The notes beneath the pieces were generated by a model. The model did no database searches, was not told the DNA's origin, and was given only the letters and a program-made list of their open reading frames with translations. The position numbers were made by a program, and so were the translations under genes. From Elusimicrobiaceae bacterium (lineage in GTDB: Bacteria > Elusimicrobiota > Elusimicrobia > Elusimicrobiales > Elusimicrobiaceae), in the NCBI GenBank assembly GCA_017961295.1, contig JAGCXL010000038.1:1-51125 (forward strand): 51,125 nt of DNA, read 5' to 3'. Below are positions 16,881 to 51,125 of the stretch, in pieces. How positions within the stretch are numbered: position 1 is the first letter of the stretch; each line of letters starts with the position of its first letter.

Positions 16881-17128
16881 GATTTCCTTGTAATGTTTCG
16901 TTAACAGTGTTAACAATTTGCCAAAATCTTCCCATTTTGTGCCAATTTTTGCTTATGTACTTGCCGCGCTATGCACGGCCGCAGATACGCCACGCTCAAC
17001 TTGCGGCACAAACGGGTCTTATTTTGACCAATCAGGGTACTGAAAATTGTACGCAGCAATGTTACGAACAACATTTAATTTTCTGCTAAGCTGAAAAATC
17101 ATCTTATTTTCTATTTTACCGGGTGTTG
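16881..17128. other. Long intergenic stretch with palindromes
   Basis: The gap between gph and the pilin-like gene is 443 bp. In its first half I see no credible gene. A perfect palindrome (GTTAACA-G-TGTTAAC, 16900-16914) could be an operator or a weak terminator. A wider inverted repeat, TTTGTGCC at 16936-16943 and GGCACAAA at 17005-17012, encloses about 60 bases that could fold. No T run follows. A small RNA is possible but unproven. The second half holds the element at 17129-17181 and the pilin promoter module. Confidence 0.4.
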
Positions 17129-17200: not shown

Positions 17201-17323
17201 TTGACTTGTTTTTTTTTGATACAGTTTGCTATGACGGATACGGGGGGATATGTTGCTCTGTGCCAAAACGCTGTATAAAAGATTTTGGAGTGTTTGAACG
17301 GTATTTGTAAAGGAGCATGTAAC
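17201..17323 (+). promoter_or_regulatory. Pilin promoter/leader module, copy A (9-T tract)
   Basis: TTGACT at 17201-17206, a tract of 9 T at 17209-17217, and an extended -10-like TGATACAGT ending at 17225. The spacer between hexamers is only 13 bp. The next ~95 bp up to the start codon are conserved with copies B (27944-28069) and C (50820-50937), including CTATGACGG, GGGGGATAT, TATAAAAGATTTT and AAAGGAG. Confidence 0.65.
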
Positions 17324-17851
17324 ATGAAAAAAACAAGCTATAAGCAGGGCTTTACCCTTATTGAATTATTGGTAGTTGTTTTAATCATTGGTGTCTTGGT
17401 GACGGTAGCGTTGCCGCGGTATCAAAAAGCTGTAGATAAGACGCACGTAAGCGAATTGTTTACAATAGCCAAAAACATAAAAACACAGCAAGAGGTGTTT
17501 TTTTTAGCCAATGGGTATTATGCCGCCGATTGTGACGAATTGGGAGCCGATTTGCCGCATGGATTTGAAGAGGATACTTCTAATCCGGGCAGTTATATCT
17601 TTCAAAGAGGCAGTTATCTTTATGTTCTTAAGTGTCAGAACGATCAGACCCGAGTTATGGCAAATGTCCAAACGGAAAATTTCTTTGCGAGTATAGAAAT
17701 GTATTTTGACCAGTTTTCTGATGAGGAAGTTAAATCTTCCAACAAAGGCAAACAAGGCAAAGCTTTTTGCTATGGCAAAAACACGCAACGCGGGTTAAAT
17801 GTTTGTAAATCGTTCGGAAAAGAATTTCAAGACAACGTATATTGGTTGTGA
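17324..17851 (+). CDS. Type IV pilin-like protein
   Basis: This 175-residue protein begins MKKTSYKQG, the prepilin leader, followed by FTLIELLVVVLIIGVLV. That is the class III signal: Gly at -1, Phe at +1, Glu at +5, and a hydrophobic helix that both anchors and packs the filament. The helix continues into ALPRYQKAVDK. A globular domain with four to five cysteines and many aromatics follows. It would be processed by a PilD-type peptidase at the membrane. The ATG at 17324 (AGGAG at 8 nt) was chosen over an in-frame ATG at 17285. It is convergent with uppP and is the most divergent of the three pilins here. Whether it is a major pilin, minor pilin or pseudopilin cannot be told. Confidence 0.9.
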   Translation: MKKTSYKQGFTLIELLVVVLIIGVLVTVALPRYQKAVDKTHVSELFTIAKNIKTQQEVFFLANGYYAADCDELGADLPHGFEEDTSNPGSYIFQRGSYLYVLKCQNDQTRVMANVQTENFFASIEMYFDQFSDEEVKSSNKGKQGKAFCYGKNTQRGLNVCKSFGKEFQDNVYWL

Positions 17852-27943: not shown

Positions 27944-28069
27944 TTTACTTGTTTTTTTTTTTTTGATACAGTTTGCTATGGCGGACACGAGGGGATATAT
28001 CCTTGTTGTTAAAATACCGTATAAAAGGTTTTAGAGCGTTTAAATGGTGTCTAAAACAGGAGTAATTGT
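27944..28069 (+). promoter_or_regulatory. Pilin promoter/leader module, copy B (13-T tract)
   Basis: TTTACT at 27944-27949, 13 T at 27952-27964, and TGATACAGT with the -10-like hexamer at 27967-27972. The spacer is 17 bp, the sigma-70 optimum. The following leader shares GCTATGGCGG, GGGGATAT, TATAAAAGGTTTT and CAGGAG with copies A and C. Confidence 0.65.
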
Positions 28070-29425
28070 ATGCATAAAAACAAGGGTTTTACCCTGATAG
28101 AATTATTAGTAGTAATACTTGTTATTGCGGTACTTGTCGCAGTAGCGTTACCGCAATACAAGCACGCGGTATTAAAAAGCCGCTTTAGTGGCGTAATGCC
28201 CCTGGCCAAAGCCGTGGCGGACGCGCAAGAAGTGTACTACTTGGGCTCCGGCGAATATGCTACCACGCAAGACAAGTTGGATATTGTATTCCCAACCACG
28301 GTGGAACGCAGTAGTTTGTCTATCAGCCAAGAAGAAAAGCACAATTTTGTCATGGCCAGCCGCAGTGATGTACCCAACGTACACTATATTAGGTATCAGG
28401 AGCACAGCCAAAACTTCCCCCGTGAGATACACTGTGAAGCCAAGGCCGATGACGAACAAGCTAACTGGCTGTGTGAAAAAGGTTTAAACGGCGAAAAGAT
28501 AGGGGGCAGCATCACCGATGGCTACACTACCTATGTGTTGGAAGGAACGGGGAACGGCAACCTGGGTAAAACGTATTACGGTACAAGTAACTTAGTTTTA
28601 GGTGAAGGAGATGTATGTATAGCCACAGGTGCCTATAATTGCTATGGTGGTTATTATGAAAACGCTTCTTGTTCAGTGGAAACGCCATCCGGTTATGCTA
28701 TATATCCTTGTGCACATAGTACTTTTACGGCTGAAGGTTTATGCAAAGGCGGGGATCACAATAAGTTAGATTGTTCTTATAGCTTATTTAATAATTCTAC
28801 TTGCAAAGGTGGAAATGGAGACAATCCATGTAATAATAGTATTTTTGAAAATAATTCTGTGTGTGAGTCTGGGACTCGTAGTGGTTGTACAGATGCTTCG
28901 TTCACTAATTCCACTTGTTATGCCAAAGGGACGGGCGGCGCTAGTAATGGCCGTTCCTGCGGTGGTACCAAATCTACCTACGATAACTCCACCTGCTATA
29001 ATCAATCCAACAATATGTGGGGGTGCGGCCAGGCCACCTATACCAACGGGTCTAAATGTTACAGTAACGAAAACGGCGGCTGTGGGGGAAGTTCTACGTT
29101 TTCGGGGGCGTCCTCTTGTTATGGTAACGGGGCAAATGGGTGCGGCTCCGGCATTTTTGACGGTGGTTCCAATTGTTATGGGGATGCCGCTTTATCTTGT
29201 GGGAAGGCCACATTTTCTAACGGTTCTGTTTGTCATGCCAATGTTCCCGGTGCTTGTACCCAAAAAGAGAATGGGACGAACGATAGTAGTTATGATAGTA
29301 CCTCTTACTGTTCCGGGGCATATTGCCCAGCGGGTACACCTGCGGGAAATGCGGAACAAGGGGGTATTTATGCGGGCGAATGTTGGGACGGACACGGCAA
29401 TCACGGCTCCCAATACTGTAGTTAA
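28070..29425 (+). CDS. Pilin-like protein with long cysteine-rich repeat domain
   Basis: This 451-residue protein has a six-residue prepilin leader (MHKNKG), then FTLIELLVVILVIAVLV and ALPQYKHAVLKSRF, the class III pilin stem. Residues about 45-175 resemble other pilin-like proteins. From residue ~183 to ~419 there are about eleven imperfect repeats of roughly 20 residues. The pattern is C-x(7-13)-C-x(3-5)-[F/Y]-x(2)-[N/G/A]-[S/T] and then the next C, rich in Gly, Asn and Ser. The protein has 28 cysteines, 24 of them in the repeats. A disulfide-stacked solenoid displayed on a pilus-like stalk is a reasonable guess. I recognise no named domain. Ribosome binding site AGGAG. Confidence 0.88.
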   Translation: MHKNKGFTLIELLVVILVIAVLVAVALPQYKHAVLKSRFSGVMPLAKAVADAQEVYYLGSGEYATTQDKLDIVFPTTVERSSLSISQEEKHNFVMASRSDVPNVHYIRYQEHSQNFPREIHCEAKADDEQANWLCEKGLNGEKIGGSITDGYTTYVLEGTGNGNLGKTYYGTSNLVLGEGDVCIATGAYNCYGGYYENASCSVETPSGYAIYPCAHSTFTAEGLCKGGDHNKLDCSYSLFNNSTCKGGNGDNPCNNSIFENNSVCESGTRSGCTDASFTNSTCYAKGTGGASNGRSCGGTKSTYDNSTCYNQSNNMWGCGQATYTNGSKCYSNENGGCGGSSTFSGASSCYGNGANGCGSGIFDGGSNCYGDAALSCGKATFSNGSVCHANVPGACTQKENGTNDSSYDSTSYCSGAYCPAGTPAGNAEQGGIYAGECWDGHGNHGSQYCS

Positions 29426-50819: not shown

Positions 50820-50937
50820 TTGACTCGTTTTTTTTTTGATACAGTTTCCAGTGACGGCAATGGGGGGATATGGCCCGGTTGTTAAGTCGTTATATAAAAG
50901 ATTTTAAAGCATTTAACGGTGCCATAAAGGAGAAACA
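50820..50937 (+). promoter_or_regulatory. Pilin promoter/leader module, copy C (10-T tract)
   Basis: TTGACT at 50820-50825, 10 T at 50828-50837, TGATACAGT with the hexamer at 50840-50845, giving a 14-bp spacer. The leader shares GTGACGG, GGGGGATATG, TATAAAAGATTTT and AAAGGAG with copies A and B. Confidence 0.65.
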
Positions 50938-51125
50938 ATGAGTCAAGAATTTAACAGTTGTCATCCTGAACTTGATTCAGGATCTGGTTGTTTTAATAAA
51001 GGTTTCACATTATTAGAACTTTTAATAGCGGTTATTATTATAGCCGTACTTGTGTTAGTGGCCTGGCCTCAGTATAAGCACGCGGTGTTAAAGAGCCGGT
51101 ATAGTGCATTATTGCCGGTAGCGCA
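50938..51125 (+). CDS. Pilin-like protein with palindrome in leader, 3' end outside window
   Basis: 62 residues are visible. A long leader of 22 residues ends in NKG, then FTLLELLIAVIIIAVLVLVAWPQYKHAVLKSRYSALLPVA, a class III pilin stem close to that of the gene at 28070 (shared PQYKHAVLKSR). Leader residues 9-16 (HPELDSGS) are encoded by an 8-bp stem palindrome at 50963-50983. The ATG at 50938 has AAGGAG at 6-7 nt; no start codon occurs nearer the cleavage site. The globular part lies beyond the window. Confidence 0.88.
   Translation, partial: MSQEFNSCHPELDSGSGCFNKGFTLLELLIAVIIIAVLVLVAWPQYKHAVLKSRYSALLPVA
50963..50983. repeat. Palindromic element inside the pilin leader coding sequence
   Basis: ATCCTGAA, loop CTTGA, TTCAGGAT: a perfect 8-bp stem inside the reading frame. 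The encoded peptide HPELDSGS is the translation of a palindrome type that recurs in the genomes of several bacteria. Confidence 0.7.

Follow-up and report, generated by a model that had tools for sequence, protein, structure and literature searches.

Candidate T-tract promoter-spacing switches ahead of dispersed type IV pilin-like genes in an Elusimicrobium-like genus

Results

Three type IV pilin-like genes in the window, that is, the whole 51,125-nt stretch of DNA analysed here, are preceded by modules in which a T homopolymer fills the spacer between a predicted -35 element and a predicted extended -10 element. The best full explanation of the modules is probably a promoter-spacing switch of individual pilins, operated by slippage of the T tract, with a leader hairpin that adds a further layer of control. 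The genome behind the analysis is 897 kb in size and 67% complete, and the window is its contig C25. One of its proteins is 97% identical to a protein of the rumen MAG 'uncultured Elusimicrobium sp. RUG11256', the closest named match. The prepilin N-methylation motif (PF07963 / TIGR02532) was found in 32 genes of this genome. All three window genes carry the motif and scored above the Pfam PF07963 cut-off in a profile search, which identifies them as type IV pilin-like. They lie on the + strand at 17324..17851 (gene 1, 175 aa), 28070..29425 (gene 2, 451 aa) and 50938..51125 (gene 3, of which the contig end leaves only the start). In relatives, the number of pilin-like genes per genome runs from 22 to over 100. 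Within gene 3, a dispersed palindromic repeat, TGTCATCCTGAACTTGATTCAGGATC, was observed at 50959-50984, in frame within the prepilin leader peptide. It is also present in the pilins C14:65135, C32:22048 and C14:55793, and encodes CHPELDSGS, or a similar peptide, ahead of GFTLLELL.

The first-pass annotation, made from the letters of the window, had described three modules that align almost end to end. An end-to-end alignment was obtained over 17201-17323, 27944-28069 and 50820-50937 (all on the + strand), in the order TTGACT, T tract, GATACAGTTT, GGGGATAT, TATAAAAGRTTTT and ribosome binding site, and the reported GATACAG-to-ATG distances of 106, 105 and 100 bp are exact. The unit had been taken to start at the T tract. 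However, that tract forms the spacer of the promoter, and therefore the unit begins at TTGACT (TTTACT in copy 2). TACAGT, which had been proposed as a promoter element, is a plausible -10. In copy 1, the -35 element TTGACT (17201..17206) is followed by a T9 tract (17209..17217; spacer 13 bp) and by TACAGT with an upstream TG, an extended -10 (17220..17225); the GATACAG leader, a 5' UTR module, spans 17218..17323. In copy 2, TTTACT (27944..27949), a T13 tract (27952..27964; spacer 17 bp) and TACAGT (27967..27972) are found with a leader at 27965..28069. The corresponding elements of copy 3 are TTGACT (50820..50825), a T10 tract (50828..50837; spacer 14 bp), TACAGT (50840..50845) and the leader at 50838..50937. 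The scan for further copies that had been suggested was carried out over the genome with the pattern TTTTTTGATACAGTTTNCNNTGNCGG (up to 3 mismatches). It gave five places and none with the reversed control, and all five precede genes with the prepilin N-methylation motif. Upstream of copy 1, window positions 16912-17045 are a dispersed intergenic repeat common to the related genomes G012, G056 and G033. It was set aside as a pilin-linked element, as the G033 copy (L093) precedes a non-pilin gene.

The upstream regions of all 32 pilin genes were inspected, and the T tract was found between TTGACT and an extended -10 of the form TGnTACrrT, either TGATACAGT or TGCTACgAT. Promoters of the type TTGACTYG-T(9-13)-TGnTA precede 13 pilin genes with several unrelated leaders, eight of them beyond the five GATACAG-leader copies. 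A genome-wide search with TTGAYTYGT9 (at most 1 mismatch) returned 14 matches, 13 of which lie before pilins, and 0 in the reversed control; the 14th, C8:16353, is not followed by such a -10. The tract lengths at the 13 promoters are 9, 10, 10, 11, 11, 11, 12 (five times), 13 and 13, corresponding to spacers of 13-17 bp. Judged by their consensus, TTGACTYG-T(n)-G(A/C)TAnnnT, the modules would be sigma-70-type promoters, and the sigma factor and start site are likewise deduced from it. Against the sigma-70 standard of TTGACA-like and TATAAT-like hexamers 16-18 bp apart, TTGACT and TAnnnT were found with a modal spacer of 16 bp in relatives; the window spacers are 13, 17 and 14 bp, so that copies 1 and 3 fall outside the range. 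Two other leader families were also seen. One follows T-tract promoters (TTAGATTTT..CTGCCCGTT..GGCYCTA) and occurs in three pilins of this genome (C34:15709, C24:42993 and C32:27010) and in one of G033 (L184). The other has no T tract (C5:906 and C24:11784 in this genome; inserts of G056 in L240 and L234), and its CGGCTG...CAGCCG-TTTTT before the gene resembles a transcription terminator and had no Rfam match.

The exact promoter pattern was found in 53 of the 66 genus genomes, with up to 103 matches per genome and 0 in every control; some of these genomes are fragmented, so the counts may include pieces of one locus. Beyond the genus, 3 of 24 genomes in the family and 0 of 59 in the sister family had it. 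Among 80 loci fetched from relatives, 69 were readable, and a pilin recognised by a crude motif is the next gene downstream at 63 of them. Further loci from four other genomes gave 11 of 11. Three of the six exceptions (L144, L146 and L163) start genes with a signal-peptide-like N-terminus; therefore, the promoter set may serve surface proteins at large. Another exception, L170, is a pilin interrupted by N's. The promoter-to-pilin link holds across the Elusimicrobium-like genus. The leader is far more restricted: good matches to a leader model were obtained in the window genome, G033, G056 and G012 only (4 of 66 genomes), with weak matches elsewhere. The first-pass annotation had proposed that the leader defines a regulon of pilin-like genes. 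The module does mark a pilin-like set, but since the promoter is present at 13 pilin genes here and in most of the genus and the leader in four genomes, it is not the leader that defines the set.

Several features of the relatives' promoters were recorded on the side. At 43 of 114 distinct promoters (e.g. L103-L142, L151-L159 and L179-L181), only 4-8 nt separate the -10 from the start codon and a Shine-Dalgarno sequence was not seen, which suggests leaderless pilin mRNAs. An inverted repeat, GATAAATTTTG / CAAAATTTATC, extends from the -10 to the start codon at 47 of the 114 (e.g. L068, L069, L082 and L111). Complementarity was required at 9 or more of the 11 bases, a threshold at which the shuffled control gave 0. 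The repeat has compensatory variants such as GATTTAATTAG / CTAATTAAATC and is possibly an operator or a DNA hairpin. Before one pilin (L212, G012:C52), the entire T-tract promoter is duplicated in tandem (36 bp), which could be an assembly error.

The composition of the spacer was determined in eight relatives with a scan that does not pre-select long tracts (TTGAYT-N8-24-GATAAATT). T tracts made up 144 of the 150 spacers, and 138 of them were pure. The purity goes beyond base composition: only 9 of 1646 tract positions hold another letter, reversed-pattern controls gave 0, and three of the only four T runs of at least 9 in the window, on both strands, are the module spacers. Lengths range from T6 to T15, with a mode at T12 (16-bp spacer; 89 of 138, 64%). 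One tract length is favoured. Because the lengths vary while the purity is kept, gain and loss of T's far exceeds substitution. T12 accounts for 5 of 13 promoters in the window genome versus 89 of 138 in relatives, a difference that is not significant (p about 0.08). Differences in length were also found between near-identical loci, although close pairs are few and come from different genomes or from paralogues: a cross-genome pair (93% identity upstream, 98% downstream) and the duplicates C25:50820 (window copy 3) and C14 both show T10 against T12, and metagenome assemblies may misstate the length of a homopolymer. Decay of the pilins behind non-T12 tracts was considered and rejected, as the frames are intact at 20 of 20 loci with a T number other than 12 (T9 or longer among those tested) and at 42 of 43 with T12. 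Contigs of relatives often end at the T tract (e.g. G001:C95, G012:C29, G033:C72 and G033:C132), as repeated leaders would cause, or a population with mixed tract lengths.

The conserved 5' UTR of about 90 nt had been suggested to be a shared regulatory RNA or to hold binding sites, and it appears to contain structure. A 30-nt hairpin (P2) near the expected mRNA 5' end beats nearly all shuffles in 12 of 12 sequences (z -2.6 to -4.3), at 17236..17265 in copy 1 (z -2.6), 27983..28012 in copy 2 (z -3.1) and 50856..50885 in copy 3 (z -2.6), all on the + strand. Its stems differ in sequence with the pairing kept, and in a hand-adjusted register compensatory changes appear in the lower stem (AUAC/GUAU, CAAU/GUUG, and ACAC with GUUGU). 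The RNAalifold covariation term was about nil (0.2; 10 sequences in an automatic, unadjusted alignment). A structure of the whole leader was rejected: most single folds resemble their shuffles (z about -1), and only the 30-nt hairpin holds. One leader copy of G056 folds as a whole with z -4.4 and has its Shine-Dalgarno sequence paired. A known riboswitch or leader was also rejected, since an Rfam search of the window and the other pilin loci searched returned only tRNAs above the gathering score. Some G012 leader copies diverge just after GTTTAAAxGG; therefore, the conserved leader block ends before the ribosome binding site.

The surroundings of the pilin genes were compared between genomes. 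Pilin 1 lies between a phosphatase-like gene and a uppP-like gene, both read from their translations. At the same site, G012 lacks the pilin and has 71 nt between the flanks, G056 carries another pilin with another leader, and G033 lacks the region together with the neighbouring gene (66 nt). The flanks of the C13 site enclose another pilin cassette in G033. These arrangements show promoter, leader and gene moving together as a cassette, which accounts for part of the leader sharing. Recent duplication of whole loci, the first-pass annotation's own counter-explanation for the conservation, applies in part. Of the five copies, two arose by recent duplication, and turnover of whole cassettes is seen at fixed sites; therefore, shared descent contributes to the conservation.

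Discussion

In both the window genome and its relatives, a repeat lies between the -35 and -10 elements of promoters of surface-structure genes. In the slippage model that we favour, each T homopolymer would act as the spacer of a promoter driving one pilin-like gene, and polymerase slippage (slipped-strand mispairing) would add or remove one or more T's. The spacer would work at 16 bp (T12), probably at 16-17 bp, and away from this length the gene would be reversibly weakened or silenced. A genome with many promoters of this type would give rise to cells that differ in their pilin combinations. With the leader of the five copies, about 90 nt long, the mRNA would gain a hairpin close to its 5' end, with a probable effect on its stability or translation. 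That the promoters are active, that their activity depends on spacer length, that populations switch and that the hairpin has a role are all predictions from sequence. For the sequenced population, the model predicts that copy 2 (17 bp) is on and that copies 1 and 3 (13 and 14 bp) are weak or off, and the extended -10 may soften such an on/off effect of the window spacer lengths. For a wider picture the balance is about even. An Elusimicrobium-like gut and rumen genus would have a contingency system of very large size, in which the dispersed pilin genes of a genome number from tens to about 100 and all have a slippable T12 spacer of their own, giving combinatorial pili, with cassettes exchanged at fixed sites and with leaderless pilin mRNAs in many relatives.

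The main rival of the phase-variation reading is that the tract has a fixed structural role in the promoter. RNA polymerase or a regulator would then read a rigid or curved T12 spacer, and length variants would be neutral drift or slightly weaker promoters that serve no adaptive switching. The dominance of exactly T12 among the relatives' tracts is what this would give, and it also fits a fixed promoter with a few off variants; besides, two interrupted tracts from another scan still have a total length of 12. However, 36% of the tracts have other lengths, down to T6-T8 (spacers of 10-12 bp), and intact pilins stand behind non-T12 tracts of T9 and longer. Moreover, a 16-bp spacer would not require a pure homopolymer, which is the most unstable choice. 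A fixed element is therefore considered rather unlikely. Under shared descent alone, a cassette of promoter, leader and N-terminus would be duplicated and moved as one piece, and the conserved leader would have no function. The exchanges at the pilin 1 and C13 sites and the near-identical copies C25:50820 and C14 are in line with this, but the conserved blocks outlast the diverged flanks and proteins, compensatory changes appear to preserve the hairpin, the tracts of the eight relatives scanned have stayed nearly pure T, and 53 genomes have the promoter. As the whole explanation, descent is quite improbable.

Two further readings place the control or the coding capacity in the leader itself. 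That a shared structured 5' UTR is the main control unit of the pilins is improbable, though slightly less so than descent alone. The hairpin with its lower-stem compensation, a leader conserved while the encoded proteins diverge, and the strongly folded G056 copy argue for it. On the other hand, most whole-leader folds do no better than shuffles, the covariation term is nil, Rfam gave no match in the window or at the other pilin loci searched, and a leader confined to 4 of 66 genomes contrasts with a promoter found in 53. The leader might instead encode a small peptide, (M/V/L)xAMGGYxPVVKSLYKRF, whose translation would start with no Shine-Dalgarno sequence. Eight leaders have ATG, GTG or TTG exactly 5 nt downstream of the -10, with an open frame of 18 codons, and the synonymous share is 28% versus 14-20% in the other frames. 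However, variation is equal across codon positions (8/9/7), and the frame is broken in three lineages, namely window copy 1 and the leaders of G056 and G012, although the nucleotides themselves remain conserved in them. A leader peptide is thus weakly supported and very improbable.

If the slippage model is true, slippable promoters before many pilins would turn the composition of the pili into a combinatorial trait at the level of the population, and the pilins of an understudied phylum would join simple-sequence phase variation. To our knowledge, few known systems match the scale of such a pilin promoter set. In the literature collection searched, no paper linked Elusimicrobium with phase variation or Elusimicrobia with 'pilin genes'.

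The layout itself has precedents. In Neisseria meningitidis porA, a homopolymer lies between the -35 and -10 (van der Ende 1995, listed in PMC5084427). There, as proposed here, the homopolymer is the promoter spacer, and its length sets the spacing and hence the expression of a surface protein. However, porA is one gene with a G tract, whereas many dispersed pilin genes per genome with a T tract are found here, and their switching is a prediction. The vlp genes of Mycoplasma hyorhinis have a poly-A promoter spacer. They are seven linked variable lipoprotein genes (PMC4198240). The likeness is a multigene surface family in which each member has its own homopolymer spacer; the vlp genes are linked and encode lipoproteins, whereas the present genes are dispersed, type IV pilin-like and from another phylum, with promoter matches that reach about 100 in a genome. 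Close in kind is also Helicobacter pylori sabA, where a variable T tract (T5-T22) at an adhesin promoter tunes the output via slippage (PMC4081817). The sabA tract, however, adjoins the -35 and acts through alpha-subunit/UP contacts, whereas the T tract here is the -35/-10 spacer. The fimbrial hif genes of Haemophilus influenzae are switched by promoter repeat number. Their variable combined promoter is listed in the same article (van Ham 1993, in PMC5084427). The hif system resembles the present one in placing fimbrial genes under a promoter repeat-number switch, and differs in its dinucleotide repeat, its one divergent locus and its chaperone-usher fimbriae. As a layout of phase variation, promoter spacing is known; the novelty is in its lineage, in pilins as the target and in how many promoters are involved.
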